This document shows positions 10,341 to 43,642 of a DNA stretch of 64,000 nt, piece by piece. Source of the stretch: a virus. The stretch spans positions 20,546 to 84,545 of the IMG/VR virus record IMGVR_UViG_3300044710_000137. One strand, written 5' to 3'. The notes beneath the pieces are model-generated. The model worked only from the letters and a program-made list of their open reading frames with translations, did no database searches and had not been told where the DNA came from. Within the stretch, counting starts at the first letter, position 1; each line of letters starts with the position of its first letter. The position numbers and the translations under genes were made by a program.

Positions 10341-10378
10341 GCCCAGATCGGCAATCCAAGCGATCCCTGGCACCCAAA

Positions 10379-10433
10379 GGTTCTACCAGCGCGGGACACG
10401 GATTGTGGCCCGCGCGGCAGCAACATCAAATTT
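10379..10433 (+). repeat. Junction repeat family A, copy 10
   Basis: GGTTCTACCA then stem GCGCGGG (10389-10395)/CCCGCGC (10409-10415), then GGCAGCAACATC. It stands between convergent runs and is non-coding here. Confidence 0.85.
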
Positions 10434-10465
10434 GACGTTTACGGCATCCTCCAATCCCGTAAGAA

Positions 10466-12060: not shown

Positions 12061-12362
12061 TTCAGTCCACCTTCAGAAGTATTCGGTGTTGATGCCGCTT
12101 CCGTCGCCGCGGCGCCGGAAGCTGGTAGAACCAGTTCGGGTTCGCCTCCGACGCCCCTGAGTGCTTCGAGTACCGCTGCAGCTATGCCTATAGCGGGGGA
12201 ACGGTCGGTATTGTTGATGGCCGGCTTGAATTCCGCCTGGACATCCACACCGCCCCCTTCTACGTCGCTGATGGTGAGGGTGAAGGTGATGCGTCGACCA
12301 GCCGCAGGCACGGCGGTGACTGCGGCGGCATCAACAACTGATTTGCCTTTTAATTTTCGCAT
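12057..12362 (-). CDS. Cassette-like gene with family-A repeats at both ends
   Basis: N-terminus MRKLKGKSVVDAAAVTAVPA and C-terminus PASGAAATEAASTPNTSEGG are translations of two oppositely oriented family-A repeats. The core is a beta-then-helix unit (ITFTLTISDVEGGGVDVQAE; SPAIGIAAAVLEALRGVG). The start overlaps the preceding HNH stop by one base. Function unknown. Confidence 0.55.
   Translation of the reverse strand: MRKLKGKSVVDAAAVTAVPAAGRRITFTLTISDVEGGGVDVQAEFKPAINNTDRSPAIGIAAAVLEALRGVGGEPELVLPASGAAATEAASTPNTSEGGLK
12074..12132 (-). repeat. Junction repeat family A, copy 11
   Basis: Stem GCTTCCG (12097-12103)/CGGAAGC (12116-12122), flanked by GATGCC and TGGTAGAACC. This stem differs from other copies at several positions on both sides. 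Confidence 0.85.
12297..12344 (+). repeat. Junction repeat family A, copy 12
   Basis: ACCA then stem GCCGCAG/CTGCGGC, then GGCATCAACAACTGATTT. It lies just inside the start of leftward gene 12057-12362. Confidence 0.85.
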
Positions 12363-13379: not shown

Positions 13380-13580
13380 TTACCCTCCAAGTTCAAAATC
13401 AAAATCAGTGTTTGATGCCGCGCCGGTCAGCCTGCCCGGCGCTGGTGCCTGCATCTTCTTTTTCTGCCGCTTCTGTCTGCGTGCCGCCAGGCGCAAAGGC
13501 AAACCCGCCAGGCGCTCATTGACGAATTCCTTCTTGGTCTTCGGCTCGATCTCCAGCAGCCGCATTTGACGGACGGTCAC
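13380..13580 (-). CDS. Hypothetical basic protein, 66 aa
   Basis: The GTG at 13580 overlaps the stop of the large upstream gene as GTGA (13577-13580), preferred over an in-frame ATG deeper in that gene. The middle is very basic (LAARRQKRQKKKMQAPAP); the C-terminus is family-A repeat sequence (GRLTGAASNTDFDF). Function unknown. Confidence 0.5.
   Translation of the reverse strand: MTVRQMRLLEIEPKTKKEFVNERLAGLPLRLAARRQKRQKKKMQAPAPGRLTGAASNTDFDFELGG
13398..13450 (-). repeat. Junction repeat family A, copy 13
   Basis: Stem GCGCCGG (13420-13426)/CCGGCGC (13436-13442) with a 9-base loop. It forms the C-terminus of 13380-13580 and lies about 25 bases before the ATG of 13180-13377. Confidence 0.85.
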
Positions 13581-15438: not shown

Positions 15439-15723
15439 TTAAATTTCTCCTGGAGTGCCTGAGGGATTTGGTGTTGCTGCCGCGCGTGCCGCAGCCGCGT
15501 CCCGCGCTGGTTCCTGCCATCGGACAGTGGGCGGATTAGTTCTGATGTCCAGCACCCACCAGTAACCGCAGGTTTGGCACGTAGCCCGCAGCGACATACC
15601 GTACCTAAGTACTGGACCGCAACCATTTGGACAGTTGCGGGCATCCCAGACGATATCGCTTTTACCAGCCGGGGGCGCGGCGGCGACACCGGCGGCATCA
15701 ACAACTGATTTTTCTTGGCTCAT
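15439..15723 (-). CDS. Zinc-ribbon cassette gene with family-A repeats at both ends
   Basis: Start fixed at 15723 by ATGA overlap. N-terminal MSQEKSVVDAAGVAAAPPAG and C-terminal EPARDAAAARAAATPNPSG are family-A repeats in opposite orientation. Between them is a zinc ribbon: CPNGCGPVLRYGMSLRATC then CGYWWVLD. This is the clearest example of a small domain enclosed by inverted junction repeats. Confidence 0.6.
   Translation of the reverse strand: MSQEKSVVDAAGVAAAPPAGKSDIVWDARNCPNGCGPVLRYGMSLRATCQTCGYWWVLDIRTNPPTVRWQEPARDAAAARAAATPNPSGTPGEI
15465..15513 (-). repeat. Junction repeat family A, copy 14
   Basis: Stem GCGCGTG/CCCGCGC (one mismatch). It lies at the 3' end of gene 15439-15723 and 30 bases before the next ATG. 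Confidence 0.75.
15664..15711 (+). repeat. Junction repeat family A, copy 15
   Basis: ACCAGCCGGGGGCGCGG ... ACCGGCGGCATCAACAACTG then ATTT. Stem GCCGG/CCGGC. Inside the start of gene 15439-15723. Confidence 0.8.
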
Positions 15724-17547: not shown

Positions 17548-17768
17548 GAAAAATAGCTTGATGGGATATATGCAGAATTGCATTTTATGTTGCTGCCGCG
17601 CCGGTCAGCCTGCCCGGCGCTGGTAGAACCTTTAGTCGACTCACGCGGCGCTGGCGGGCACTTGCGTCCCTCATGTCGCGCGCCGCACTTCTGGCACGCC
17701 CCGCAGCACCAACAGAACCGGCGCTCTCCTATTCCCGCTCCGCACCATTGGCACTTCGTTCCAGGCAT
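17511..17768 (-). CDS. Cys-rich zinc protein, 85 aa
   Basis: Start at 17768 (MPGTKCQWCGAGIGERRFCW) and CCGACQKCGARHEGRKC, eight cysteines in under 35 residues, so two zinc sites are likely. The downstream part translates a family-A repeat in a different frame from usual (STSAGQADRRGS) and runs into the operator region of the next gene, so the true end may be uncertain. Confidence 0.45.
   Translation of the reverse strand: MPGTKCQWCGAGIGERRFCWCCGACQKCGARHEGRKCPPAPRESTKGSTSAGQADRRGSNIKCNSAYIPSSYFSTVGHPMSLALC
17584..17630 (-). repeat. Junction repeat family A, copy 16
   Basis: Stem GCGCCGG/CCGGCGC as in copies 13 and 18, flanked by GCTGCC and TGGTAGAACC. Confidence 0.85.
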
Positions 17769-19274: not shown

Positions 19275-19532
19275 TTAGCCGTAATTCCGACGACGCACCG
19301 GTGTGGACATCCCTTTGTTTTGTTCGCAGCGCCCGCGCCGGCCGCCCCCAATCCGACACTTCCGACAGCTAAACGCTGTTTTTGCGAAAAAACGCACGTC
19401 GAGGGCCAAACGAGCGGGGCTGGGTGATAGGCGTTGGGGCGTTGGCGAGCGGTCAACCGCGCGTCTACCAGCGCGGGACGCGGCGGCGGCACGCGCGGCA
19501 TCAACAACAAATCCTTCTGGTATGTATCGCAC
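19275..19532 (-). CDS. Possible repeat-headed small protein, 85 aa
   Basis: Begins MRYIPEGFVVDAARAAAASR, the same kind of family-A-encoded N-terminus as at 6654, 9805, 12057 and 15439. The rest is basic with a CRKCRIGGGRRGRC cluster. The overlapping frames make the call weak. Confidence 0.3.
   Translation of the reverse strand: MRYIPEGFVVDAARAAAASRAGRRAVDRSPTPQRLSPSPARLALDVRFFAKTAFSCRKCRIGGGRRGRCEQNKGMSTPVRRRNYG
19464..19514 (+). repeat. Junction repeat family A, copy 17
   Basis: CTACCAGCGCGGGACGCGG ... GCGCGGCATCAACAAC, about 60 bases before the ATG at 19577. Confidence 0.75.
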
Positions 19533-21999: not shown

Positions 22000-22484
22000 A
22001 GATCCTGCGAGCACTCCTGGCGGCCCTGGGCCTGTGCGCCCTCGCGGCCGCGCAAACGCCGTCCACGACAACGACCCTGGCGATGGTGCGCGAGATTCAG
22101 CCGTTGCTGGCGAGTCCCGTGCCGTGCTTGGTCTACATCGCGGCCGGTAAAACGATGTGCGCGTCCCTCGGCGCGAATATCGTCGTAACGGCAAATCCGA
22201 ACGGCGTAACGCTCAGCGTCTCCAACCCCAGCCTCACCATGGTGTTTCCGTCACCGGTCTATTTTCCGGTGACCACCGCGGGCACACAGACGTTCACCAC
22301 CACGCAGCCGTCCACCGCGAGCGGTAACGCCGCGAACAGCAACCCTCACTACTGGGTATTCCGCGATGGCGTGCTCCTGAACTACGGCACAGATTACACG
22401 CAGTCGGGGAACATCGCGGGGTCAACGGTCACTCTTGGGGGGGCCCAAACCACCGTCCCTGGCGACGTCATTCAAATCTGGTAA
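21996..22484 (+). CDS. Secreted structural-like protein, 162 aa
   Basis: Signal peptide MKILRALLAALGLCALAAAQ. The C-terminal ~50 residues (YWVFRDGVLLNYGTDYTQSG; VTLGGAQTTVPGDVIQIW) resemble a beta-rich module common at the ends of phage fibre and structural proteins (x-RNG-L-DYT ... GD-I-I). Overlaps GroES by ATGA. Virion or surface location is inferred. Confidence 0.6.
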   Translation: MKILRALLAALGLCALAAAQTPSTTTTLAMVREIQPLLASPVPCLVYIAAGKTMCASLGANIVVTANPNGVTLSVSNPSLTMVFPSPVYFPVTTAGTQTFTTTQPSTASGNAANSNPHYWVFRDGVLLNYGTDYTQSGNIAGSTVTLGGAQTTVPGDVIQIW

Positions 22485-22487
22485 CTG

Positions 22488-23102
22488 ATGGATTTTACCC
22501 CGTTCCACATGCAGCCTGGCGACGTAATCGCCTTCGCCGGTAAAGAGCCGCTTTCGTTCCTCATCGACGCCTATACCGGTTCGAAGCTGTCGCACCTGGC
22601 GATGGTCAAGTCCAACACCTCGGGTGAGGTCTGGGTCACCGAAAGCACGATCTTCACCGATCCCCTGACCAAGAAAAAGATCAGCGGGCCGCAGACGCAT
22701 CCCCTCGAACAGGTCCTGACCGTGGATTACGCGGCGCCCGGCTCTTGCGCATGGCACCTGGCGCTCTCGGACGACGTGCGGGCGCAGATCGATTGGACAC
22801 AATTCTCCGCATTTATCGCGCATTGCGAGAACGGCTCCGTGGCCTACGATATCCCCGGCTATATAGCGTTCCTGCTGCGATCAATCCCATTCCTGGGCGC
22901 GCGGGTGTGCCAGTCGGAAAACTATCGCAGGATGTTCTGTTCGGCTTACGATACGGCCATCTTCGAGAACTGCGGCGTGCCCTTACACCGCGACTTTTCG
23001 GCGACGTCGCCGGCGGACCTGGTGCGCATGCGGATTTACAAGTCGTGCACGCAGATTCTGGGACTGACGACGGTGATCGATCCAGCCTTCAACACGCTGT
23101 AA
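22488..23102 (+). CDS. Permuted NlpC/P60 (YiiX-like) cysteine peptidase
   Basis: The N-terminus has GDVIAFAGKEPLSFLIDAYT then SKLSHLAMVKSN, with the catalytic His in SHLAM. After VTEST and GSVAYDIPGYIAFLL, the catalytic Cys lies in MFCSAYDTAIFENCG (residues ~145-160). His before Cys is the order of permuted NlpC/P60 (YiiX/YebB-like) enzymes, which cleave peptide or acyl bonds. It may act as a lysis or tail enzyme; no signal peptide is seen. Confidence 0.7.
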   Translation: MDFTPFHMQPGDVIAFAGKEPLSFLIDAYTGSKLSHLAMVKSNTSGEVWVTESTIFTDPLTKKKISGPQTHPLEQVLTVDYAAPGSCAWHLALSDDVRAQIDWTQFSAFIAHCENGSVAYDIPGYIAFLLRSIPFLGARVCQSENYRRMFCSAYDTAIFENCGVPLHRDFSATSPADLVRMRIYKSCTQILGLTTVIDPAFNTL

Positions 23103-23114
23103 TCTTTCCCTTTT

Positions 23115-23208
23115 CTGCCAGCGGAATCCGCACGGCAAACAAGCGGTCTCCAGTTCCCCGATAACATCGCGCGATTGACAGCGCATCGAAGCCACAAGCT
23201 TATAACAA
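23115..23208 (+). repeat. Junction repeat family C, copy 3
   Basis: TGCCAGCGGAATCCGCACGG ... GGTCTCCAGTTCCCCGAT ... ATCGCGCGATTGACAGCGC ... ATCGAAGCCACAA. It precedes the small terminase gene by about 125 bases. Confidence 0.8.
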
Positions 23209-23333
23209 GATTACCGGCACATCCGGTAAAGGCGCTCCTTACAGTAAGGAATCCAGCGCCGGGCACAGGGCTCCAACAACAACGGTCCACTCCTACCGTT
23301 GGGAGTCCTGTCGCCTTCCAATAATTCTCACTT

Positions 23334-23960
23334 GTGAAAGACAAAACTCCACCGACGGACACAACAAAAGAGCAGCTCGACGAGTCCTTGATAAACCCCG
23401 CTCTCATGGCCCGCATCCAGGCTATGGGATCTCCCATCGTTCCAGGACCGGCCCAAATAGAATTGGACAAGCGCGCATCGAAGAAACAGCGCATGCTGAT
23501 AGCCTTCGTGGTGACCGCGGGAAACGTCACGAGGGCAGCTAAAGCCGCCGGCATCGACCGCGACACCCACTACGCCTGGCTCAAGGACGATTCCGAATAC
23601 GCCGCGTCGTATCGTGATCGTGTACCCAACGCCGCCGGCGTCCTCGAGGACGAAGCCCGCAGACGGGCAGTCGAAGGTACACTCAAGGGCGTATACCACA
23701 AAGGCACGCTCGTAGACATGGAAGTGGAGTACTCGGATCGGCTCCTGATCCAGCTTCTGAAAGCCCACCACCCAGCGCATAAGCCCACCCTGACCATCGA
23801 CGGCCGGGGTAAGAACGGCGCCATCGCGATAGAACAAACCACCGCCGAAGACCTCGCCAAGCTGCCGGAAGAAACACTCCTGGAGCAAATCAAAGTGGCC
23901 CGCGAAACCCTCGAATGGCTAAAAGCGAGCACCCATGCAACAATCGAGCGGGCTCCCTAA
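23334..23960 (+). CDS. Small terminase subunit
   Basis: The 208-residue protein has a helix-turn-helix segment (TAGNVTRAAKAAGIDRDTHY; AWLKDDSEYAASYRDR) followed by LEDEARRRAVEGTLKGVY and VEYSDRLLIQLLKAHHP, a pattern typical of phage TerS proteins. TerS recognises the packaging site and loads TerL. GTG start at 23334 (a TTG two bases earlier is out of frame). It overlaps the TerL ATPase gene by 46 bases. Confidence 0.75.
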   Translation: MKDKTPPTDTTKEQLDESLINPALMARIQAMGSPIVPGPAQIELDKRASKKQRMLIAFVVTAGNVTRAAKAAGIDRDTHYAWLKDDSEYAASYRDRVPNAAGVLEDEARRRAVEGTLKGVYHKGTLVDMEVEYSDRLLIQLLKAHHPAHKPTLTIDGRGKNGAIAIEQTTAEDLAKLPEETLLEQIKVARETLEWLKASTHATIERAP

Positions 23961-24697
23961 AGGAGCTCTTGGAACTCAGGGCGGAATTGGAAGCTCAACT
24001 CGAGAAGCGCAATACCACCATCCGCGAGATCCGGACCAATAGGATTCAAGACCAGTTTCCTTTCACCGGTCCGTTCCGCCGCGAGCTCTACCCCAAGCAC
24101 ATGGAGTTCTTCGCCGCGGGCGCGGAACACACGGAGCGCTGCTTTATGGCGGGAAACCGCGTGGGCAAGACCCGGGCGGGCGCCTGCGAAGCGACGTACC
24201 ACCTCACGGGAAGCTACCCCGATTGGTGGGTGGGGAAGCGCTTCGATCATCCTGTCGAGGGCTGGGCGGCCGGCTCTACAAACCAAACGGTACGGGATAT
24301 CATTCAGGCTGAATTGCTGGGCAAACTGGCGCCGGACAAGGAATCGCGGCCCGAGGATCCCATCGGGCTCGGTACCGGCATGATCCCGGCTGATGCGATC
24401 CGCGCCATCAACCGGCGATCCGGCGGCGTCAAGGACTCGATCGAATCGGCGTATATCCGGCATGTCTCCGGAGGGACGTCGCTTCTCGGATTCAAAACTT
24501 ACGACCAGGGGCGGCGTAGCTTCGAGGGCACCGGCAAGCATTTCGTATGGGTGGACGAGGAATGCCCGTTCGACGTCTATATCGAAGCGCTGACGCGTAC
24601 GATGACCACGAAGGGGATCATCTACCTGACGTTCACGCCGTTGAGGGGAATGTCAGAAGTGGTCCTGCACTTTCTTCCCAGCACGACGCTGGATTGA
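23915..24697 (+). CDS. terL: Terminase large subunit, ATPase half (split gene)
   Basis: The 260-residue protein contains the packaging ATPase: Walker A GNRVGKT (residues 80-86), Walker B VWVDEE (211-216) and coupling motif LTFTPLRG (238-245). It ends at MSEVVLHFLPSTTLD, just where the nuclease domain would begin in an undivided TerL. The missing nuclease half is at 31370-32158, 6.7 kb downstream. No frameshift or slippery site is seen at the end: the TGA is in the same frame and no continuation exists. The two halves would have to work as separate chains. Confidence 0.85.
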   Translation: MAKSEHPCNNRAGSLKELLELRAELEAQLEKRNTTIREIRTNRIQDQFPFTGPFRRELYPKHMEFFAAGAEHTERCFMAGNRVGKTRAGACEATYHLTGSYPDWWVGKRFDHPVEGWAAGSTNQTVRDIIQAELLGKLAPDKESRPEDPIGLGTGMIPADAIRAINRRSGGVKDSIESAYIRHVSGGTSLLGFKTYDQGRRSFEGTGKHFVWVDEECPFDVYIEALTRTMTTKGIIYLTFTPLRGMSEVVLHFLPSTTLD

Positions 24698-24703
24698 AAA
24701 ACT

Positions 24704-25141
24704 ATGAGCGTGCCGCACATTTTCACCCAGCGATTCACGGGATCGGTCGTTGTTTGCTACTCGGTCTCGCATACTGAGCTCGACTTCGCGCGGGACATAC
24801 CAGCGCTGCTTTTGAATGTTTTCGATCTGCTGGATGCTCTTACCAGACATTTTATCTATCCACCGCCGACGCGCGAGCAAAGGAATGCGTATTACGACGC
24901 GGTAATGAATCAACGGCCGTGTCATCCACCGCTAAAGGCTCCCTGGCCGGATCGCTCCGAACAAATCCTTCCGGAGCCCATTTGGACGAACATCCACGCC
25001 GAGGACTACGAAACCATATTCGAGCGCTGCTACGGTGGAACGCTGGTACGACCGCCTGTTGAACCCGGCTTAGGCACGACCAGCACCACCGGCGGATCCA
25101 CGGGCAGCACCGCGATCGGCTTACCCACACGCTGCCCATAG
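24704..25141 (+). CDS. Hypothetical protein in the terminase split, 145 aa
   Basis: Begins 6 bases after the TerL stop. It has TELDFARDIPALLLNVFDLL and YPPPTREQRNAYYDAVMNQR, then EPIWTNIHAEDYETIFERCY. The last ~35 residues overlap the opposite-strand LuxR-like gene. Unrecognised. Confidence 0.45.
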   Translation: MSVPHIFTQRFTGSVVVCYSVSHTELDFARDIPALLLNVFDLLDALTRHFIYPPPTREQRNAYYDAVMNQRPCHPPLKAPWPDRSEQILPEPIWTNIHAEDYETIFERCYGGTLVRPPVEPGLGTTSTTGGSTGSTAIGLPTRCP

Positions 25142-25434
25142 CGGACGCCCCAACAAAAGGGCGCACCGCATTTGCAGTCATCCGGATGCAGGCCCGGGGA
25201 GACTGCGAAGCCGGCAAGGCACTCCGGGTGCGTCAAGATAAAGCGCACCAGCTCCACGATGGAAGTGAGCCGCAACGGTCCCGCCACGTGCGCTATGTGA
25301 GTCTTTAGGGTCTCCGGCGCGATCTGCAGCCGCTCTGCAATTTCCTTACGCGGTACTCCTAAAACCAGCAGGTACGCTATTTCCTGTTCTCTTTGCGACA
25401 GCGAAACCTGGTGGATTAACGTATCGATCTTCAC
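25030..25434 (-). CDS. LuxR-type HTH protein 1
   Basis: N-terminal LuxR/GerE HTH: VSLSQREQEIAYLLVLGVPR, then KEIAERLQIAPETLKTHIAH (residues 10-48). The C-terminal part has CKCGAPFCWG and a Pro-rich tail. There is no autoinducer or receiver domain. It is the only leftward gene at this end of the insertion and stands divergent from LuxR-type gene 2. Confidence 0.7.
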   Translation of the reverse strand: MKIDTLIHQVSLSQREQEIAYLLVLGVPRKEIAERLQIAPETLKTHIAHVAGPLRLTSIVELVRFILTHPECLAGFAVSPGLHPDDCKCGAPFCWGVRYGQRVGKPIAVLPVDPPVVLVVPKPGSTGGRTSVPP

Positions 25435-25555
25435 AAGTGAGTGGCTATCGTCCCCCCGTCAGGGGATGGTCCGCGATGGCCTTTACCGGCGGTATCCTAC
25501 CCCGATTATAGGACTTCCGCGCACGAATCAAATTCTGGGATCATCGGTACGCCAC

Positions 25556-25855
25556 ATGGAAAAACCCACGTTGACGAGCCTTCCCCCACGGCAGTTGGCG
25601 ATCGCGCGCCTGGTGCATCAGGGTCTGAGCAACGAGCAGATTGGGATTGATCTGCAGATCCAGCGTTGCACGGTCACCACCCAGCTGCACAGGATCTACG
25701 AGACGCTGGGTTTGGTCTGCCGGCAATATCCGAGGATGCGGTTGGCTCTCATCATCCAGGAACACGAAAATGCGACGGCTAAAAACTCTGATCTTCAACT
25801 GCCTGCTGCTGCTTTGACTGGTGGCGGCATGAGCATCCCGATGGAGCGAGTGTGA
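25556..25855 (+). CDS. LuxR-type HTH protein 2
   Basis: Start set at 25556 (MEKPTLTSLPPRQLAIARLV). LuxR HTH: VHQGLSNEQIGIDLQIQRCT, then VTTQLHRIYETLGL. No sensor domain; 99 residues. It shares the fold, not close sequence, with its neighbours at 25030 and 26353. Confidence 0.7.
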   Translation: MEKPTLTSLPPRQLAIARLVHQGLSNEQIGIDLQIQRCTVTTQLHRIYETLGLVCRQYPRMRLALIIQEHENATAKNSDLQLPAAALTGGGMSIPMERV

Positions 25856-25859
25856 CCGC

Positions 25860-26348
25860 TTGAGGGAGACAATTTCGTTTTTGGCTAATCTGGCGCTCTG
25901 CAAGCTGCAGAACGACATTGGCGGCCACCTCGTATTAGCGGAGTTTCCCGATCCGCCGGCGCCCCCGCGGTACGACCTCAGTCCACTCGGCCGGTATCTG
26001 GGCCAGTGCATGATAACCACGGAGCTCAAGGCTTTGTGGCAACTGCCGGCGAGACGCGAGAACCTGGAGTCCTCCTGCAGGACCGCGCTGTCGGATATAG
26101 TGCGGGACCTCCGCTCGATCACCGAGGCGGACCCCGGCTGTCCCGAAGAAGGGTGGGACGACAAACCGAACTTGCCTCAGATGCAAATCGTCTTCGCCCG
26201 ACCGGCGATGACGGGCGAAGTGGAGCAGGCTATCTGTTCGGACCGCCAGGCAGGCATCGCGCTGCGCGCCACTCGCATGAATGAAGACACCATCGCCATA
26301 GCCGTGAATTTCGGCGTGCGACGGCTTCTCCAATGCCGATTCGAGTAG
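25860..26348 (+). CDS. Hypothetical protein between LuxR genes, 162 aa
   Basis: TTG start. It contains NLALCKLQNDIGGHLVLAEF and LSDIVRDLRSITEADPGCPE, then a beta-rich C-terminus (DTIAIAVNFGVRRLLQC). Sandwiched between two LuxR-type genes, it may be their sensor or partner, but that is only context. No family recognised. Confidence 0.5.
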   Translation: MRETISFLANLALCKLQNDIGGHLVLAEFPDPPAPPRYDLSPLGRYLGQCMITTELKALWQLPARRENLESSCRTALSDIVRDLRSITEADPGCPEEGWDDKPNLPQMQIVFARPAMTGEVEQAICSDRQAGIALRATRMNEDTIAIAVNFGVRRLLQCRFE

Positions 26349-26352
26349 AACC

Positions 26353-26775
26353 ATGCAATACCTGACCACGCGCCAGCTTGCGGTTGCCGAATGCCTCGGG
26401 CGCGGTTTACGCAATAAGGAAGTGGCTAGTGAGCTAGGCTTGACCGAAGGCACGGTGAAGGTCTACATCTCGTACATCTTCACTAAACTGCAGATCGATT
26501 CGCGGCTGAAACTCGGCCTATTATTTAACGCCGGCGAATTAGGAGTCTGGCCGGCATCCGAACCGAAGCCGAAGCGGGCATACGCGACCCGCGCGCAAGT
26601 GGCCATCACAGCGAATGAAACAGGCGCACTTCGGCCGTTGCGGCTTACTGTTCGCGGTCCGTTGACGGAAGTCGATAAAAAGTGGGATCGCATCTTCGAC
26701 GAGAAGTTTGCGGACCCAGCTTACTACGTCCAACCACCTACGGTATCCGTCGGCTCGACCCTAGGCCGCGCATAA
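26353..26775 (+). CDS. LuxR-type HTH protein 3
   Basis: Starts MQYLTTRQLAVAECLGRGLR, then NKEVASELGLTEGTVKVYIS and YIFTKLQI: a complete LuxR/GerE HTH (residues 4-45) without a sensor domain. The basic linker KPKRAYATRAQ and a C-terminal unit (LTEVDKKWDRIFDEKFADP) follow. Third such gene within 1.8 kb. Confidence 0.75.
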   Translation: MQYLTTRQLAVAECLGRGLRNKEVASELGLTEGTVKVYISYIFTKLQIDSRLKLGLLFNAGELGVWPASEPKPKRAYATRAQVAITANETGALRPLRLTVRGPLTEVDKKWDRIFDEKFADPAYYVQPPTVSVGSTLGRA

Positions 26776-26841
26776 TACGTCGGAGCCCGAGGAGACGGAA
26801 CCCTGCGGTTCCTTCCCCTCGAACCCCTTCTTCCCCTATAA

Positions 26842-26873
26842 CCCAACACCGAGCACCCAGCACCCTCAAAGGA
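26842..26873 (+). repeat. Low-complexity repeat family E, copy 2
   Basis: CCCAACACCGAGCACCCAGC and CACCCTC before AAAGGATTTCCTC-ATG at 26881. Confidence 0.7.
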
Positions 26874-26880
26874 TTTCCTC

Positions 26881-27231
26881 ATGTCCAACGCAGTCCGCGG
26901 CCGCAAGAAAACCGGCCTCAAACCCGTGCCGAAAGGCAAGATGACCCACATGCACGTGCGCCGCATGGATAACGGAGGCTTCACCGTCGATAGCGACCAC
27001 GAGCTGCCGGAGAAGAAAAGCATGACCAGCAAGAAGGCCATGGGCAGCGCCATGGGTTTCGGGCCGTCCACGGAGTCGCATTCCGCGAGCTTCACGGGCC
27101 CCGACGATGCCCTGGCGCACGTGGGCCAGTTGATGGCGTCCGGACCGCCCAGCCCCGAGGCTCCCCCAGCTCCGGCCGGCGGCGCGCCCGCGCCTGGCGC
27201 GACCGACAGCACCATGCCGGAAGGCGAGTAA
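26881..27231 (+). CDS. Hypothetical protein, 116 aa
   Basis: Basic N-terminus (RGRKKTGLKPVPKGKMTHM), short beta unit (HVRRMDNGGFTVDSDHEL) and a Pro/Ala/Gly-rich tail. AAAGGATTTCCTC precedes the ATG. Phages often encode such proteins near the portal or terminase. Function unknown. Confidence 0.5.
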   Translation: MSNAVRGRKKTGLKPVPKGKMTHMHVRRMDNGGFTVDSDHELPEKKSMTSKKAMGSAMGFGPSTESHSASFTGPDDALAHVGQLMASGPPSPEAPPAPAGGAPAPGATDSTMPEGE

Positions 27232-27235
27232 AACG

Positions 27236-27481
27236 GTGAGCCCCGAAGCCAACGAGATCGTCGCGGCGCTTCGTGCGGCCGGGCAGCGGGCACGCCAGGA
27301 TGTCACCACTATCCCGGCGTATCGGATCACTCCGGACCGCTTGCGCTCGATGCGGCAGCAGTATGAAGTCGCGGAAGTATTGCTGGAAGACGATACCGAA
27401 GCCTTTCTTATTACAGCGTGGGACGTGCAGCGCGCCAGACCGCTCGCGCGGATCTTCGTGCTGAAGCCTGAAAATGCCTGA
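27236..27481 (+). CDS. Hypothetical protein, 81 aa
   Basis: GTG start. It has EANEIVAALRAAGQRARQDV and a C-terminal sheet (FLITAWDVQRARPLARIFVL). Overlaps the next start by 8 bases. Unrecognised. Confidence 0.5.
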   Translation: MSPEANEIVAALRAAGQRARQDVTTIPAYRITPDRLRSMRQQYEVAEVLLEDDTEAFLITAWDVQRARPLARIFVLKPENA

Positions 27482-27923
27482 AACTATACCAGCCACCAGC
27501 CACCAGCCACCAGCCACCGCCTCACTGGCGAAGGCCGTGGCCGACCACATCGACGAACGCCTGGAGGGTCAGCCCGCGCGCTTCAGCGACAAGCCGCTGC
27601 CCGGGCGGAAGATCCGGCAGATCTATCGGCTGGAGAAGATGGGCTGGCCCGCGGCCCCGCTCGACGCCGAGTCCGCCGCCTTCGCGCTGAAGGTAGCCGA
27701 CGACCTCGCCGGGCAACTACTCACCGCGATTAATCGCAACCCCGGCTGTGAATTGGTTTCGTGGGCGGGAGAGATCCCGCGCAGTATCGCGGAAGCGGAC
27801 TTTCACAACGGCAAGACCACCTCCGTGCGCGTCTTGGGCAATCACGATATTCACGAGAACTGCTTTCTGGTGCGCTTCGACGTGATCTACCGGATGGTGA
27901 AACTGCCTCCGAAGAAGGTATAG
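27474..27923 (+). CDS. Hypothetical protein with family-D-encoded N-terminus
   Basis: Residues 6-15 (ATSHQPPATA) are translated from a family-D tract. The rest looks real: FSDKPLPGRKIRQIYRLEKM, then GCELVSWAGEIPRSIAEADF and VRVLGNHDIHENCFLVRF. No family recognised. Confidence 0.5.
   Translation: MPETIPATSHQPPATASLAKAVADHIDERLEGQPARFSDKPLPGRKIRQIYRLEKMGWPAAPLDAESAAFALKVADDLAGQLLTAINRNPGCELVSWAGEIPRSIAEADFHNGKTTSVRVLGNHDIHENCFLVRFDVIYRMVKLPPKKV
27489..27519 (-). repeat. Low-complexity repeat family D, copy 2 (translated)
   Basis: CCAGCCACCAGCCACCAGCC, read as coding sequence in gene 27474-27923. Confidence 0.8.
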
Positions 27924-27925
27924 AA

Positions 27926-28096
27926 ATGGCCATTAAAATCAAGCCCAGCCATAAGGGCATGCTTCACGCCGAACTTGGAATCGCCTCGGATAAACCGATC
28001 CCCCTTTCCCGCATCGCCGGCGCTATGAAGAACGCCGGTCCCAAGGAAAAGAAGCGCCTCGTCTTCGCGGAGAACGCACGCAAATGGAAGCACTAA
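27926..28096 (+). CDS. Small conserved phage protein, 56 aa
   Basis: Reads MAIKIKPSHKGMLHAELGIA, then IPLSRIAGAMKNAGPKEKKR and LVFAENARKWKH. The pattern 'IKPSHKG-LH', 'I-A-K--A' and a final 'FA-NARKW' is seen in many phages next to packaging genes. Function unknown to me. Possibly binds DNA (basic). Confidence 0.65.
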   Translation: MAIKIKPSHKGMLHAELGIASDKPIPLSRIAGAMKNAGPKEKKRLVFAENARKWKH

Positions 28097-28410
28097 CGGC
28101 GAATGGATTTACAGTGCCACTGACTGGCGCTGCGGGCGGCGTCGCGGGCGCTAACGGCAGTGGCGGCTGCACCTGCGGCTTGACGACGAACATCTCATGC
28201 CCAGTCCACGGCATCCGCTACGACTCTTGGACATACACCCAACAAGTTCCATACTCGACCGAGAAGTGGGGTTTTTGTCCCTCCGACGGGCACAAGCTCG
28301 ATACGAACTGGAAGTATTGTCCGTCCTGCGGGAGGGCTATAGGCACGATGCAAACCACTTGGCCGCAGATCGTCCTCTACAACGGGACGCACAACCAAGG
28401 CGCGGATTAG
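28084..28410 (+). CDS. Zinc-ribbon protein, 108 aa
   Basis: Gly-rich N-terminus, CTCGLTTNISCPVHG, then FCPSDGHKLDTNWKYCPSCG near the C-terminus, a classical zinc ribbon. Overlaps the previous gene end by 13 bases. Function unknown. Confidence 0.55.
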   Translation: MEALTANGFTVPLTGAAGGVAGANGSGGCTCGLTTNISCPVHGIRYDSWTYTQQVPYSTEKWGFCPSDGHKLDTNWKYCPSCGRAIGTMQTTWPQIVLYNGTHNQGAD

Positions 28411-28441
28411 GCTCCGCACCCAACATCACAAAAAAGGAAGA

Positions 28442-28798
28442 ATGACGAAACAACAGGCAACGAAAGAACTGGGCGCGCAGACGCATCGCGTGGCCTATCT
28501 GGAGCAATTACTCGAGGAGGCTTTCGCGGACCGCGAGAAGTTGAGCGACGGCGTGGAGTCTTACAGCCGCCGCGCGGCCTACGCCGAGTCGTGCTTTAAG
28601 AAAGCTGAATGGCAGAATGGGGCACTCAGGGAGCAGGTAAACCAATTGAACGCCCAGAATCAGCAGCTCGCCAAGGACAACCTCCAGATGAAGAACAACC
28701 TGGACGTGTTCCGCAACCGCTTCGTCTCGCGCCAGATGGACATGAAGAGCGAAGCGCTCTTCTGGAACATCGACATCCAGTCCCTAATCAAGAGCTAG
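28442..28798 (+). CDS. Coiled-coil protein, 118 aa
   Basis: Nearly entirely helical, with heptads at residues 15-95 (VAYLEQLLEEAFADREKLSD; LREQVNQLNAQNQQLAKDNL). AAAAGGAAG precedes the ATG. No other domain. Function unknown. Confidence 0.55.
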   Translation: MTKQQATKELGAQTHRVAYLEQLLEEAFADREKLSDGVESYSRRAAYAESCFKKAEWQNGALREQVNQLNAQNQQLAKDNLQMKNNLDVFRNRFVSRQMDMKSEALFWNIDIQSLIKS

Positions 28799-29001
28799 GG
28801 CGCGGTCTTCTCCGCGGTCTTCTCCGCTGGCTTCTCCTCCGCGATTTCCTTGATTTCCACACACAAAGGCGTGACTGCGGCCATAAATTCTCTTGGTTTC
28901 GCCTTGGCGACCCGAATCCAATGCTCCGCGCCAATCAACCCGTTCGCCTGGTCAAAGTTGCGGAATCCATGCTCGGCTCCCTTCTGTTGCTCTTCCGTCA
29001 T
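28795..29001 (-). CDS. Hypothetical protein, 68 aa
   Basis: Leftward, convergent with the coiled-coil gene. It reads MTEEQQKGAEHGFRNFDQAN then IRVAKAKPREFMAAVTPLC, with an E/K/P-rich tail (AEEKPAEKTAEKTAP). The repetitive tail and lack of family make it uncertain. Confidence 0.45.
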   Translation of the reverse strand: MTEEQQKGAEHGFRNFDQANGLIGAEHWIRVAKAKPREFMAAVTPLCVEIKEIAEEKPAEKTAEKTAP

Positions 29002-29067
29002 TGAATTACCTCGCTTTGAACGGGCGCGGCGGGTGTGGTCTCACCGCGCCCATTGGTTAGGGCTCAG

Positions 29068-29361
29068 TTAAACGCCGGTACCGGCGCCGCCGGCGCGCTG
29101 CGTTTGCGGCCAGACTTCGTTGACCAGATCCACCAGGATGCTGGGATTCTCGCTCTGGTTCACGTAGATCGACGCGGCCATGACTGGCGTAAGGTCCAGC
29201 GTGCCGACGCAGAAGTCGATCAAGTTGCCCGTGGGTGGGGTGGTGCGGAGCACTTTACGGAAGGCGTCGATGTTCGAGCCGATCCGTCCATACACGGATT
29301 GCGCTGCATCCGTTGTCAAATGCAGGGTTCCAGTGCAGTACTGGATGAATTTTTCTTTCAA
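29068..29361 (-). CDS. Protein with two copies of a ~40-aa unit
   Basis: The unit FIQYCTGTLHLTTDAAQSVY (residues 5-24) is repeated as LIDFCVGTLDLTPVMAASIY (47-66), each followed by a short helical end. The internal duplication supports a true coding sequence. Function unknown. Confidence 0.55.
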   Translation of the reverse strand: MKEKFIQYCTGTLHLTTDAAQSVYGRIGSNIDAFRKVLRTTPPTGNLIDFCVGTLDLTPVMAASIYVNQSENPSILVDLVNEVWPQTQRAGGAGTGV

Positions 29362-29400
29362 GTTGATTTGGTACCTCCTGACTTGAACTATAGCGCTTCC

Positions 29401-29455
29401 AAAGATTTATATGTTGATGCCGCGCCGGTCAGGCCTGCCCGGCGCTGGTAGAACC
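29401..29455 (-). repeat. Junction repeat family A, copy 18
   Basis: Stem GCGCCGG/CCGGCGC, flanked by TTGATGCC and TGGTAGAACC, 6 bases before the ATG at 29462. Confidence 0.85.
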
Positions 29456-29461
29456 GTCCCA

Positions 29462-29773
29462 ATGAAAATTCTGTCAGGGTCCGCTACAGTATGTGGAAAT
29501 AGGGTATACCGCGATAGCGGCGATCTCTTCGCCCTGGACTTGCCCATCCGCCTCTCGATCAATAACGACGCCTGCACACTACCGCCAAAGACCACCACGG
29601 CTTCGGAGCATCGCATCGTCTGGGAGGACCACGGGGTTGTCACGGTGTCCAGGATCCCCCCGGCCGGCGCGCCGATTTACTGGTGCCAGATGCGTCCCTC
29701 CAGATGGCGCGATATCGCCTCGGGCCTGGTCCGCGCGGTCTTCTCCGGACTAGGCGCTTTTCAGGGAAATTGA
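29462..29773 (+). CDS. Hypothetical protein, 103 aa
   Basis: Starts MKILSGSATVCGNRVYRDSG and is mostly beta (LFALDLPIRLSINNDACTL; RIVWEDHGVVTVSRI). The start lies directly after a family-A repeat. No family recognised. Confidence 0.5.
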   Translation: MKILSGSATVCGNRVYRDSGDLFALDLPIRLSINNDACTLPPKTTTASEHRIVWEDHGVVTVSRIPPAGAPIYWCQMRPSRWRDIASGLVRAVFSGLGAFQGN

Positions 29774-29793
29774 CGCCCGCCACCCGAATGCTG

Positions 29794-29847
29794 GAACCAG
29801 CGCGGGACACGGCTTGTGGCCCGCGCGGCATCAACATATAAGCCTTT
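29794..29847 (+). repeat. Junction repeat family A, copy 19
   Basis: ACCA then stem GCGCGGG/CCCGCGC, then GGCATCAACATATAAGCC, just before the ATG at 29852. Confidence 0.85.
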
Positions 29848-29851
29848 GCAA

Positions 29852-29992
29852 ATGCCATTCGTCAGCCAAGCACAAGAGAAGAAATTCCGAGAACTCGTAG
29901 CAACCAAGCAGATGAAGCAATCAGTCTACGACGAATGGTTGAAAGCCACCCCCGACCTGAAGAAGCTTCCCATCCGTTTAAAGAAGAAGTAA
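29852..29992 (+). CDS. Small conserved phage protein, 46 aa
   Basis: Reads MPFVSQAQEKKFRELVATKQ, then MKQSVYDEWLKATPDLKKLP. The 'MPFVS-AQ--KF--L' start and basic end resemble short proteins found near packaging genes of many phages. Function unknown to me. Confidence 0.6.
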   Translation: MPFVSQAQEKKFRELVATKQMKQSVYDEWLKATPDLKKLPIRLKKK

Positions 29993-29995
29993 TCA

Positions 29996-30154
29996 ATGCC
30001 ATTCCAGCAAATCCTATGGAACTCGGAGACGTTCACGTGGACAAGATATCCAGCTTTGCTCGCCGAACTCGGGTTTCGAACCAACGCGGCCGGATTTCTG
30101 TTAGCCCAGGAAGCAAAAACACATCGGGACAGGATTTACAAAATCCTGGAGTAG
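29996..30154 (+). CDS. Hypothetical small protein, 52 aa
   Basis: Starts 3 bases after the previous stop: MPFQQILWNSETFTWTRYPA, then LLAELGFRTNAAGFLLAQEA. Plausible helical protein. Too short to classify. Confidence 0.45.
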   Translation: MPFQQILWNSETFTWTRYPALLAELGFRTNAAGFLLAQEAKTHRDRIYKILE

Positions 30155-30159
30155 CCGGC

Positions 30160-30321
30160 ATGACCGTTTCACTGCCGCGCATCCCAGATCCGGCAGCCGA
30201 AGCGGACGTGCTGTGGGAAGGCTTGGAATTCCTTCTGACGCATAAATGCTGCGGATTCACTTGCTCCGAGTGCGACCGCTTGAATGCCGTGCGGAGTATT
30301 TTACTCGCCCGGTGGACGTGA
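30160..30321 (+). CDS. Hypothetical small Cys-containing protein, 53 aa
   Basis: MTVSLPRIPDPAAEADVLWE then CCGFTCSECDRLNAVRSILL: a helix followed by a CC-x3-C-x2-C cluster. Its end overlaps the leftward gene 30301-30549. Confidence 0.45.
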   Translation: MTVSLPRIPDPAAEADVLWEGLEFLLTHKCCGFTCSECDRLNAVRSILLARWT

Positions 30322-30549
30322 GCCGCTCGCTCGCTGTTTTGACCACTGCATCAGGTATCGAATCGGCGAATCAATAGAGCGCCGGCTGACGTCCGGATGC
30401 GGATCGCTGGCGACCCAATTAACGAATAGCCTCTGAAGGGCGGCATGCTGGATCTCAGGCTCGCGGCGCAGTAAATGACGCCGGGCAAGAAACGCGGAAA
30501 GAAACGCGGAAGCAAAGATGGCGGCGATACAGGGCCACGCGTGGACCAC
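30301..30549 (-). CDS. Small membrane protein, 82 aa
   Basis: GTG start 2 bases after the upstream TAA, with GGAG upstream. N-terminal membrane segment (WPCIAAIFASAFLSAFLARR), then a basic region and helix (HAALQRLFVNWVASD). Function unknown. Confidence 0.45.
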   Translation of the reverse strand: MVHAWPCIAAIFASAFLSAFLARRHLLRREPEIQHAALQRLFVNWVASDPHPDVSRRSIDSPIRYLMQWSKQRASGSRPPGE

Positions 30550-30551
30550 CT

Positions 30552-30794
30552 TTACGGTGCTCCAGACGCCTTCGGCATCGCATCGCCCCACACCCACCCG
30601 CTGATTTTCGATAGGGCGAAGAACCCGACGATCTCACCGGCGAGACCACGCAGTTCAAAGTGAACGTCCGTACCGTCGCCGCTGGCTTTCTCCTCGACCG
30701 ATACAGCCTGTAGCTTCACAATCCCCGCGGCGCTGAAGACGTAGAAGTCGCGCATCTTCGGCTTCGGACTCGCCACACTTGCCGCTTTAGGCAT
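30552..30794 (-). CDS. Hypothetical protein, 80 aa
   Basis: Start at 30794 (MPKAASVASPKPKMRDFYVF). Beta-rich: FYVFSAAGIVKLQAVSVEEK then DVHFELRGLAGEIVGFFALS. Divergent from the structural-like gene 30814-31200 with 19 bases between. Unrecognised. Confidence 0.5.
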   Translation of the reverse strand: MPKAASVASPKPKMRDFYVFSAAGIVKLQAVSVEEKASGDGTDVHFELRGLAGEIVGFFALSKISGWVWGDAMPKASGAP

Positions 30795-30813
30795 ACCCCC
30801 AGGATACCGCTTT

Positions 30814-31200
30814 ATGTCCGCACTCCCCATTTCCGCCCAAGCCGTGCTCGCTTATAACAACGGCGCCGGCATCAACATCCAGCTCCCCGAGACATCCAGC
30901 GCCACAGCCGTAGCGATCGCGGGCGTGAACTTTAACGGCAGCTCCATGGTTGTGCCCACGACTTCCGGCGGTACCGCAATCCCTCTCGGCGCATTACAGA
31001 ACCTCGGGCTTGCCTGCTTCCAGAATCTCGACCCCACCAATTATTGCGAAATCCTGACCGCTGTCAGCGGCACCGCCATCATAAAGCTGAACGCCGGCGA
31101 TCCGCCGTTCCTATTCCGCTTCGGGCCTGGAATTACCGCGCCTGCGCTTATTGCACATACGGCCACGACGCTCGTCCAGTGGCTCATTTTGGAAAATTGA
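30814..31200 (+). CDS. Structural-like protein, 128 aa
   Basis: Begins MSALPISAQAVLAYNNGAGI and is beta-rich with small residues (SATAVAIAGVNFNGSSMVVP; TAVSGTAIIKLNAGDPPFLF), as in phage decoration or minor virion proteins. No signal peptide. Overlaps the next gene by one base (TGATG). Confidence 0.5.
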   Translation: MSALPISAQAVLAYNNGAGINIQLPETSSATAVAIAGVNFNGSSMVVPTTSGGTAIPLGALQNLGLACFQNLDPTNYCEILTAVSGTAIIKLNAGDPPFLFRFGPGITAPALIAHTATTLVQWLILEN

Positions 31201-31370
31201 TGACGGACTTCCGCGCCTGGCGCGAAGACCTCGACCATCGCGAGTACGAATATCTGCTGGCGCGCGAAGAACCCCCGCGGGTCGATCCGCAGCGGCGTTT
31301 CGGGCTGACCGCGGACGATGGCGCGTTTCTCGGCGCGATTGAGAAGGCTTTCCGGGACGAGGTGCGGTAG
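31200..31370 (+). CDS. Small acidic/basic protein before TerL nuclease, 56 aa
   Basis: MTDFRAWREDLDHREYEYLL then EEPPRVDPQRRFGLTADDGA. Its stop overlaps the GTG of the TerL nuclease half (TAGTG, 31368-31372), so translation of the nuclease is coupled to it. No family recognised. Confidence 0.55.
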   Translation: MTDFRAWREDLDHREYEYLLAREEPPRVDPQRRFGLTADDGAFLGAIEKAFRDEVR

Positions 31371-32158
31371 TGCCGTTTTTGTGCACCTGCACTTGGGAAG
31401 AGGTGCCCCATCTCGGTGGAAAAGAGAAAACCGAACTCCTCCTCACCTATCCTCCCCACCAGCGCGATGCCCGAACCAAAGGGGTACCGCAGTTAGGCGC
31501 GGGCGCGGTCTATCCGATGCTCGAAGAGGAAATCCTCTACGATTATTTCGACATTCCACCATACTGGCCGCGAATGTTTGCGTTAGACGTAGGTTGGAAT
31601 CGTTCGGCAGCACTGTGGGGCGCGCTGGACCGGGACAGCGACCGGCTGTTCATCTATAGTGAACACTACCAGGGCAGGCTGACGCCACACGAGCACGCGC
31701 GCATCATCAAGGCGCGTGGGTCCTGGATACCCGGCGTAATCGATCCAGCCTCGCGCGGATCGAGCCAAGCGGACGGCGAAAAGATTGTCGAACTCTACCG
31801 CGCGGAAGGGTTGGATCTCACCTACGCGGACAATAACGTCGAAGCCGGCATCTATGACGTTTGGCAGCGGCTACAGAACAACCGGCTGAAGATTTGCAAG
31901 ACGCTCATCAATCTGCGCCAGGAATACCGGCTCTACCGGCGCAACCCGAAAGACGGGCATGTCGTCAAGCCGAGATTGCCCCAGGAATTGCCTGAAGGGC
32001 GAACGGCCGCGGAGTACGGCGATCATTTGCTCGACTGCCTCCGCTATATGTGCCGTGGATTGCAAGTTATGAAACAGGCGCCCGTGGTGCCGAAGCGCGG
32101 TCCCGGATCGCAAGCCGAATGGAAGCAGCCAACCGGGCCCCTCGGTTGGATGGCGTAA
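31370..32158 (+). CDS. terL: Terminase large subunit, nuclease half (split gene)
   Basis: The 262 residues match only the C-terminal half of a large terminase: the pre-nuclease helix WEEVPHL, PHQRDARTKGVPQLGAGAVY, then an RNase-H-like nuclease with acidic residues D73 (FALDVGW), D125 (GVIDPASRG) and D218/D222 (GDHLLDCLRY). The ATPase half is 6.7 kb upstream (23915-24697). The GTG start is coupled to the preceding stop. All catalytic residues are kept, so both halves are probably functional together. Confidence 0.85.
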   Translation: MPFLCTCTWEEVPHLGGKEKTELLLTYPPHQRDARTKGVPQLGAGAVYPMLEEEILYDYFDIPPYWPRMFALDVGWNRSAALWGALDRDSDRLFIYSEHYQGRLTPHEHARIIKARGSWIPGVIDPASRGSSQADGEKIVELYRAEGLDLTYADNNVEAGIYDVWQRLQNNRLKICKTLINLRQEYRLYRRNPKDGHVVKPRLPQELPEGRTAAEYGDHLLDCLRYMCRGLQVMKQAPVVPKRGPGSQAEWKQPTGPLGWMA

Positions 32159-32162
32159 ACGC

Positions 32163-32465
32163 CTACCGCTTTACTGCCGTATTCAGGGTGAACACCATGC
32201 GCGCAGTACCCCCGCTCGGCCGCCATCCCAAGCTTTGAAGCCTTTCGAGGCTGATGCGGCGGCGCTCCATGGCCTCTGCTATCTCGGCTTCCAATGCACG
32301 GCGGTTATGGATCAAGCGCACTTTGAGCCATACATTGACGCCCACCAGCACGGATTCCAAGACAAACCACCAAACCTTCCGGTAATATCCTGTCGGAATG
32401 CCGACCCCCAGAACAATCGCGACCAGCAAAAGCACGATCCACCACTCGCGCAAGAAACGCCGCAT
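32163..32465 (-). CDS. Two-pass membrane protein, 100 aa
   Basis: Two hydrophobic segments (WWIVLLLVAIVLGVGIPTGY, residues 8-27; WWFVLESVLVGVNVWLKVRL, ~32-51) then a charged helical tail (EAEIAEAMERRRISLERLQS). It is leftward within rightward genes, 4 bases from the TerL nuclease end. A holin-like role is possible but unsupported. Confidence 0.5.
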   Translation of the reverse strand: MRRFLREWWIVLLLVAIVLGVGIPTGYYRKVWWFVLESVLVGVNVWLKVRLIHNRRALEAEIAEAMERRRISLERLQSLGWRPSGGTARMVFTLNTAVKR

Positions 32466-32498
32466 TGGCTCAGTTTAACCCCAAAAAAGGAAAAAGCA

Positions 32499-32699
32499 AT
32501 GACCACCGATAAAACAGTGAACACGGGCATCAACTATAAGGAAGTGCCCATGGGAACCGGATCGTATGGAACTCCCAAAGGAACGCCGGATGTAAAGAAA
32601 GCAGGGACAGTAGCGGACCTGAAATCGAAGACGTCGGATGATTCCAGTGGTAAGGCGGAAAATCTGGGAGCCATGGGCGACTATTGTTGCAAAAAGTAA
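32499..32699 (+). CDS. Hypothetical small protein, 66 aa
   Basis: Start at 32499 with AAAAAAGGAAAAAG upstream; an earlier in-frame start would overlap the membrane-protein gene. It reads MTTDKTVNTGINYKEVPMGT, then SKTSDDSSGKAENLGAMGD and CCKK. Low complexity, possibly disordered. Confidence 0.5.
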   Translation: MTTDKTVNTGINYKEVPMGTGSYGTPKGTPDVKKAGTVADLKSKTSDDSSGKAENLGAMGDYCCKK

Positions 32700-32704
32700 T
32701 TATG

Positions 32705-32803
32705 GGTTGGTGAGCCTCGGAAGCTGAGGCCGCCAGCCGTTCACCCAGGCCAATGGTGAGCGCTTGTTTGCCGCGTGTCACTTACCGCATGCTTGCCTGG
32801 TGA
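32705..32803 (+). repeat. Junction repeat family B, copy 3
   Basis: GGTTGGTGAGCCTCGG ... CCCAGGCCAATGGTGAGCGC ... TACCGCATGCTTGCCTGG, beginning 5 bases after the stop of 32499-32699. Confidence 0.75.
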
Positions 32804-32828
32804 TGGTGCCGCATCCCCGCCACGCCGA

Positions 32829-33308
32829 TCATCGCGGCTGGCCAATCAAAATAATCCGCTTCCCAACCATGGGCAGCTCCGTTCGCTCGACAGTGTGCGT
32901 CCGGCTCGCCAGCTTGCATAGATGCTCCAGCCAGGGGCGCTCACTGTAAGTCTCCCAGAACGGGACCGCATCCGGTTTAATGCAGCACGGGCAAATCACG
33001 AACGGGACGCCATGACGCGCTGCGTACAACACGATATGGTCCGTAGCTTCATCCGGGTGCATGCCCAGCACCAGGCGATAGTCTTCAGGCCCGTCGTATC
33101 GGAAGTACGCGTACTTTTGCCCGGGGCGCCCTTTGGCTAACCGGTGCCGTTTGTCGATGGTTATGACGCGCCGGAACCCGCGCTCGCGCAACGCCGCCTG
33201 GAGATAACCCTTACCGCCAGCCACGTCTGCGACCAGGGAATTGTGGAAGCGCGAAAATCTGGACTCCACAAGAGTGGCGAACAGATCGAACCTCCGCGCA
33301 TCGCCCAT
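32829..33308 (-). CDS. Class I SAM-dependent methyltransferase-like protein
   Basis: Residues ~27-38 form the SAM-binding start VADVAGGKGYLQ, continued by GFRRVITIDKRHRL. GMHPDEATDHIVLYAARHG then PFVICPCCIKPDAVPFWE follows, similar to bacterial methyltransferases with a 'MHPDEATD' motif. 159 residues is short but complete for the core. The substrate is unknown; RNA or DNA modification are options. Leftward in a rightward region. Confidence 0.65.
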   Translation of the reverse strand: MGDARRFDLFATLVESRFSRFHNSLVADVAGGKGYLQAALRERGFRRVITIDKRHRLAKGRPGQKYAYFRYDGPEDYRLVLGMHPDEATDHIVLYAARHGVPFVICPCCIKPDAVPFWETYSERPWLEHLCKLASRTHTVERTELPMVGKRIILIGQPR

Positions 33309-33466
33309 TGGCTACAGTCTACAGTGCCCGGCTACCAAATGCCAGGACAGTGCCGCTACCCAAGACCGGTCGGGCCATAGCCTAAAGCCGCGTGGCACAC
33401 CAGCACTGACGAGGTACAACTCAAGCGCGCGGGATGACCACAGCCGCGTAGCTCCCAAAAGACTGC

Positions 33467-33925
33467 ATGCGCATATCCCCTCCCGATTGGGTAGCTAAAC
33501 TCTCGAGTGAACTTCATCGCCTTCGTGACGCTGAAGACACTTCCATTGAAGCTGTAAACCTTCGCGCCAGGGAAGTAAGAGACCATGGCCCCGCGGTATT
33601 CAAGCTCCTCGTGGAACAAGCCCGTAGCGCTTCCGCCATGCTTGGGCTCCTCTGTGATTCAAGAGCCAACTGGTTGATGATCAAGAATACCGGCGCACCC
33701 TTCAGGATGCTCCAGGCCACCTTGGATATCGAAGGCATGGGGATCGCCGTGAACTACACCTTGGGCTCGTTGATCGGCGGAAGGAACCCGGCCATCACCA
33801 AGGATTTCGTGGACATCCGCTTGTCGCCGCCCGAGAACTATCTGGTATTGGTTCACGCCGGCACGCAGTTGAAAGCGGCGGATGTGCTGGAAGTGCTATT
33901 CAGGAACGCGTTTCTCCCGAACTAG
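33467..33925 (+). CDS. Hypothetical protein, 152 aa
   Basis: Helical N-terminal half (AVNLRAREVRDHGPAVFKLL; EQARSASAMLGLLCDSRAN) then a sheet-rich half (GMGIAVNYTLGSLIGGRNPA; NYLVLVHAGTQLKAADVLE). A competing leftward frame (33356-33619) is less convincing. Unrecognised. Confidence 0.45.
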   Translation: MRISPPDWVAKLSSELHRLRDAEDTSIEAVNLRAREVRDHGPAVFKLLVEQARSASAMLGLLCDSRANWLMIKNTGAPFRMLQATLDIEGMGIAVNYTLGSLIGGRNPAITKDFVDIRLSPPENYLVLVHAGTQLKAADVLEVLFRNAFLPN

Positions 33926-33931
33926 GGCGCA

Positions 33932-34378
33932 ATGATTCAAATCACGCAAGACGAGAACGGGGCCTTACTTTCGGACGACCGCGCCATCCTGCCGGCCGGA
34001 ATGCTCGATCCGATCTTCGAATGGCTCCAGGATCTCAACAGCGACCGTCCGGACCAGCACCGGCGCTTCCGGCTGCCGATGGAACTCCCCGTCTGGCCGA
34101 TGGATGGTGAGTCTCCGGACTTCTCCGCGACGATAACCGAGAGGGTCCTCCTCTTCGAAAAGACGCAATGGGCGGCAACCAGCGATAACGTGACACGGTT
34201 GTTTATGGCCGCGAGATCGCTGAATTCCGACGAGCCAAAATATGAGATTCTGGGCCCGGAAGTTGCGCGGCGTCCCACCGTGGGCGGCTATCGGCTAATC
34301 TGTCGCGATCCGATCAGTGCGCAGTTAAAGTACCAAGCCTATCGCTTGGGATTACCACGCCCAGCCACCAGCCACTAG
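33932..34378 (+). CDS. Hypothetical protein, 148 aa
   Basis: Starts MIQITQDENGALLSDDRAIL, with IFEWLQDLNSDRPDQHRRFR and a C-terminal stretch (YRLICRDPISAQLKYQAYRL). The last residues (PRPATSH) come from a family-D tract. Function unknown. Confidence 0.5.
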   Translation: MIQITQDENGALLSDDRAILPAGMLDPIFEWLQDLNSDRPDQHRRFRLPMELPVWPMDGESPDFSATITERVLLFEKTQWAATSDNVTRLFMAARSLNSDEPKYEILGPEVARRPTVGGYRLICRDPISAQLKYQAYRLGLPRPATSH

Positions 34379-43534: not shown

Positions 43535-43580
43535 CGCCTAGACCGTACCACCGCTCGACTCAAATCCGCAAGCTGAGGAA

Positions 43581-43636: not shown

Positions 43637-43642
43637 GATCTT

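Follow-up and report, generated by a model that had tools for sequence, protein, structure and literature searches.

Probable GerE-type DNA-binding proteins without sensor domains are encoded inside a split terminase gene of a soil phage

Three small proteins, LuxR1, LuxR2 and LuxR3, encoded between the two separated halves of the large terminase subunit (TerL) of a soil phage, each carry a GerE-type helix-turn-helix (HTH) and no sensor domain, and we consider them, at a probability of roughly 0.6, to be stand-alone, constitutive transcription factors of the GerE fold that act on phage or host promoters. The window analysed is 64,000 nucleotides long (bases 20,546-84,545 of an 84,545-base IMG/VR virus record), and these are the only three GerE matches in the whole record. 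The nearest TerLs among bacterial genomes, where TerL is one gene, belong to a Bryobacteraceae genome (59%) and to other Acidobacteriota; the host is therefore probably a member of the Acidobacteria, an assignment made from a single gene through prophage relatives of TerL.

Searches with the Pfam GerE profile (PF00196; curated cut-off of 23.5 bits) support all three proteins, in agreement with the initial annotation, which had placed a LuxR/GerE HTH near each N-terminus and proposed this search as a check. LuxR1 (25030-25434, minus strand; 134 aa) scores 46.5 bits (E 2.7e-12) over residues 11-65, LuxR3 (26353-26775, plus strand; 140 aa) scores 50.1 bits (E 2.1e-13) over residues 3-54, and LuxR2 (25556-25855, plus strand; 99 aa, or 129 aa from an ATG at 25466) scores 27.9 bits (E 1.8e-6) over residues 8-53 of the short form or 38-83 of the long form. 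The matches fall within about the first 65 residues, the HTH starting at residues 3-11, or at residue 38 in the long form of LuxR2. LuxR1 and LuxR3 retain almost the complete profile and continue into tails with no recognised domain, that of LuxR1 containing cysteines (ECLAGF...DDCKCGAPFC). LuxR2 is the weakest of the trio, with a match that spans profile positions 2-47 of 57, degenerates past the recognition helix and ends before the fourth (dimerisation) helix; its best PDB match is the ChrA response regulator (E 0.0011). NCBIfam and PDB searches concur with the GerE assignment, and the relatives of solved structure found by sequence are NarL, FixJ, EL222 and VraR (phmmer E 3.1e-6 for LuxR3 against NarL and EL222). 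AF2 models were built from single sequences and are usable for the LuxR1 HTH only, the LuxR3 model being of too low quality; the LuxR1 model has four helices, the first three confident, with confidence restricted to the HTH (block pLDDT of 75-90 at residues 11-50), and its top Foldseek matches are EL222, NarL, VpsT, LiaR and FixJ, with GerE also present (probability 0.99-1.0, E at least 0.013).

Pfam, PHROGs and NCBIfam detected no receiver, PAS or autoinducer domain in the three ORFs, which upholds the earlier reading of the proteins as lacking receiver and autoinducer domains, and no second domain exceeds its Pfam cut-off. The autoinducer-binding domain that precedes the HTH in quorum-sensing LuxR receptors is missing, as is the receiver with a phospho-accepting Asp of NarL/FixJ response regulators; the ORFs, of 99-140 aa, begin just ahead of the HTH. 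CARF proteins reported by PADLOC were rejected, as the matches are confined to the HTH.

The proteins come closest to the stand-alone GerE-type factors already known, GerE and PedR. GerE is a cellular regulator of sporulation, about 74 aa in length. In Bacillus subtilis (PDB 1fse, 6jqs) it is likewise a sensorless LuxR-family HTH standing alone, and the LuxR1 model matches its fold; however, it has no equivalent of the tails that follow the HTH in the phage proteins. PedR of Synechocystis is also a small sensorless LuxR-type factor, and its 74-position NCBIfam profile matches LuxR1 (E 1.1e-6) and LuxR3 (E 6.5e-7), but the scores of the three phage proteins (28.7, 19.5 and 29.4 bits) are far under the 120-bit cut-off of the PedR equivalog (NF052366); PedR is cellular and interacts with thioredoxin (PMC9025218). 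The output domains of NarL/FixJ regulators provide the best sequence and fold matches, differing in that the phage proteins have no receiver domain. Phage LuxR-type regulators have been studied chiefly as quorum receptors. Those of phi-ARM81ld and Apop, likewise phage-encoded, respond to acyl-homoserine lactones (PMC6456758), whereas the present trio has no domain for such ligands. Sensorless ones would indicate that the DNA-binding module on its own is also put to use by phages, perhaps for occupying host regulator sites.

The ATPase half of TerL (23915-24697, plus strand; Terminase_6N PF03237, E 2.8e-18; phrog_31467, E 3.9e-70) is directly followed by a 145-aa ORF (24704-25141, plus strand) with no family match and a weak coding score, the 3' end of which overlaps the 3' end of LuxR1. 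LuxR1 diverges from a unit of LuxR2, a 162-aa ORF (25860-26348, plus strand) and LuxR3 across a shared region of 121 bp (25435-25555), a candidate promoter region. The 162-aa ORF has no Pfam, PHROG or NCBIfam match, and its own frame is the best of six; spacings of 4 bp separate it from LuxR2 and from LuxR3, so that the three genes probably form one operon. By phage codon use the own frame is also the best of six in all three LuxR ORFs, with a normal score for LuxR3, a marginal one for LuxR1 (0.003) and a low one for LuxR2 (0.077 in the long form, 0.13 in the short form).

Binding to DNA is the natural reading of a sensorless GerE HTH. As a NarL/FixJ-type output domain with no input domain, each protein would probably dimerise on DNA, as this fold does elsewhere, and because the input domain is absent its activity would follow expression, the protein being active whenever it is made. 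Divergent genes around one shared region are the typical layout of a self-regulating cassette, and LuxR1-3 would control their own 121-bp region together with further phage or host promoters. Within the divergent region, the best inverted repeat is no better than chance (161 of 200 shuffles were equally good), and matches to a sigma-70-like promoter are at chance level. The motif TCCTA-N-TAGGA was considered as an operator and rejected: it occurs in three places, two of them adjoining copies of a 100-nt repeat, and the two copies with a 6-base spacer look like the flank of that repeat, while the copy with a 9-base spacer at 25495 has no independent support. The initial annotation had further suggested that the proteins might set the timing of late genes or target host regulons; its identification of sensorless GerE proteins stands, and for this role the evidence points neither way, no operator having been found. 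None of the relatives examined has the genes, so that comparison lends no backing to a core late-gene role, and host targets are kept possible because the LuxR3 HTH lies near host NarL-type regulators. It also appears quite unlikely that the trio is a regulatory cassette of the terminase operon that times the packaging genes, with mobile genes generally landing at the TerL junction.

LuxR1 and LuxR2 are 28-29% identical to LuxR3, in line with the earlier view that the three differ and did not arise by a recent triplication. In a tree of 53 HTH columns, LuxR3 groups with support (96/85) among proteins from the likely host order that have the size of response regulators and to which its HTH is up to 51% identical, and 187 of 200 genomes of that order contain a match to it; LuxR1 groups with another set, and its HTH is up to 47% identical to regulators of the same order. 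These likenesses would fit output domains taken from response regulators of the host, which would sit on the sites of host regulators during infection and rewire or block the regulons, and separate capture of the three genes is possible. Such a role is nevertheless doubtful, as the similarity to host regulators is essentially limited to the HTH, the terminal branches are long, the AU test does not reject a single origin of the trio (p 0.155), and the host is itself assigned through prophage TerL relatives. Decay bears on the trio in another way: the LuxR2 profile match ending before the fourth helix and the low coding scores of LuxR1 and LuxR2 mean that one or two of the genes may be decaying. 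That all three are accessory-gene remnants with little or no function, left in a permissive insertion site, would account for this incomplete match and for codon scores of LuxR1, LuxR2 and ORF 24704-25141 that are weak against most phage genes, but it is unlikely given that the three frames are all open, that LuxR1 and LuxR3 match nearly the full GerE profile and that LuxR3 has normal codon use.

Peptide-pattern scans of IMG/VR returned no relatives of any LuxR protein, of the capsid protein or of a neighbouring insert protein, and full-length conservation of LuxR1-3 was seen in no relative. GerE exceeds the cut-off in 1 of 50 related virus records, immediately upstream of TerL at the position of the small terminase subunit (TerS), and genes in the TerS position of two loci (L049, L020) have weak GerE-like scores. 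These weak scores, and the location between the TerL halves, could be taken to mean that LuxR1-3 are extra TerS-like DNA-recognition proteins that aid DNA packaging; this is very improbable, since a normal TerS is present (23334-23960, plus strand; phrog_4044 terminase small subunit, E 5e-21) and the matches of LuxR1 and LuxR3 to response regulators are much stronger than to any TerS family. Among about 120 relatives, none has a GerE gene within the TerL split, these splits holding other genes instead, and so the trio looks like accessory cargo rather than a conserved module. As transcription factors, LuxR1-3 would thus form a cassette carried at an insertion-tolerant junction between the TerL halves.

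The setting, comprising the TerL junction and a family of covarying hairpins, is more unusual than the GerE proteins themselves. Terminase_6N and Terminase_6C lie in separate ORFs that flank the trio, confirming that the genes sit inside a terminase split; 6.67 kb separate the ATPase half from the nuclease half (31370-32158, plus strand; Terminase_6C PF17289, E 4.7e-5). Inspected by eye, the translations of both halves retain hallmark motifs, those of the ATPase half being Walker A GNRVGKT, Walker B FVWVDEE and TFTPLRG. The start of the nuclease half overlaps the stop of the preceding ORF (TAGTG), and its product is about 33-54% identical to the C halves of most relatives. TerL relatives drawn from IMG/VR and bacterial genomes are cut at the identical site, after TFTPLxGMSEVVLxFLP: among 121 TerLs scored, one of them the window's own, 37 are fused, 42 consist of two adjacent ORFs and 42 have at least 130 bases between the halves. 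In a tree of 96 TerLs, the fused or split state changes at least 12 times, well-supported branches forcing 8 of these changes, and the separated state at least 14 times, of which 11 are forced. Splitting and insertion recur at the TerL interdomain junction across many phages (window 23915-32158; loci L010, L015, L063, L089, L095, L119 and L130), in many of which ATPase and nuclease apparently function as two polypeptides; repeated splitting at one interdomain position, with unrelated cargo, bears on the packaging motor generally.

Genes for small HNH endonucleases, some below the family cut-off, occur in five inserts (L010, L018, L050, L063, L130), and the inserts also encode a beta-helix protein (L089), a collar protein (L063) and a BrnA antitoxin (L119). 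A TerL split by an intron was rejected, since window positions 22000-34000 match nothing in Rfam up to an E of 1, as was a split by an intein: the N half stops 5 residues past the conserved stretch, which leaves no room for an N-intein. In Aeh1, nrdA-a/nrdA-b with mobE represents a gene split by a free-standing endonuclease (PMC3653736), and there as here a core phage enzyme is made as two proteins, with genes between and no intron. By analogy with Aeh1 (PMC3653736), a reasonable history is that free-standing endonucleases would have split TerL and that the cargo was exchanged later. Unlike in Aeh1, the split gene is TerL, and the ORFs searched in the window's insert include no recognisable endonuclease, though relatives have HNH genes there. 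A literature search on split terminase genes returned nothing direct under the wording used. The insert gene at 30814-31200 has a homologue of 66% identity in L185, a contig of a related phage, where it adjoins homologues of window genes at 54-57 kb, which suggests that genes of the latter kind were shuffled into the TerL split.

The phage also contains two families of interspersed elements, a hairpin (family A) and a repeat of about 100 nt. The flanks of family A, ACCAGC...GCGGCA(TCAACA), are invariant and its stems covary strongly; its pattern has 25 matches in the 84.5-kb record, compared with 1 per strand for a reversed control pattern. In 15 aligned copies (window 4881-4935, 6672-6732, 7381-7441, 9811-9871, 10378-10440, 12073-12133, 12290-12350, 13395-13452, 15456-15516, 15657-15717, 17574-17631, 19460-19520, 29398-29456, 29795-29855 and 43578-43638) pairing is kept in 97.2% of cells. 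Both-side changes number 30, compared with 9.6 in shuffles, and the covariation score is 0.455, slid controls reaching no more than 0.056. Several of these hairpins lie a short way before gene starts. Several copies are present in L185 (up to 66% protein identity), some about 50 bases upstream of the start of a homologous gene, and 100 genomes from the likely host order contain none by a stricter pattern; a leader RNA or promoter element is possible.

The repeat of about 100 nt (ACCAGCGGAATCCGC...GCATCGAAGCCACAA) lies at window positions 8209, 11434, 23110, 51972, 54037, 54998 and 56625, all on the plus strand, and showed no covariation when folded. Most copies end just before a gene start, one copy lies upstream of TerS, and a copy precedes each of three related proteins encoded in a row (54144-54911, 55104-55853, 56728-57522). 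Three genes related to this row are also found in L185, the homologous tail genes of which have a family A hairpin in place of the repeat. Lastly, a tRNA at 2934-3048 (minus strand) scores 50.5 bits with Rfam and is not listed by ARAGORN; it spans 115 bases on a 71-position model and therefore contains an insertion of about 40 bases.
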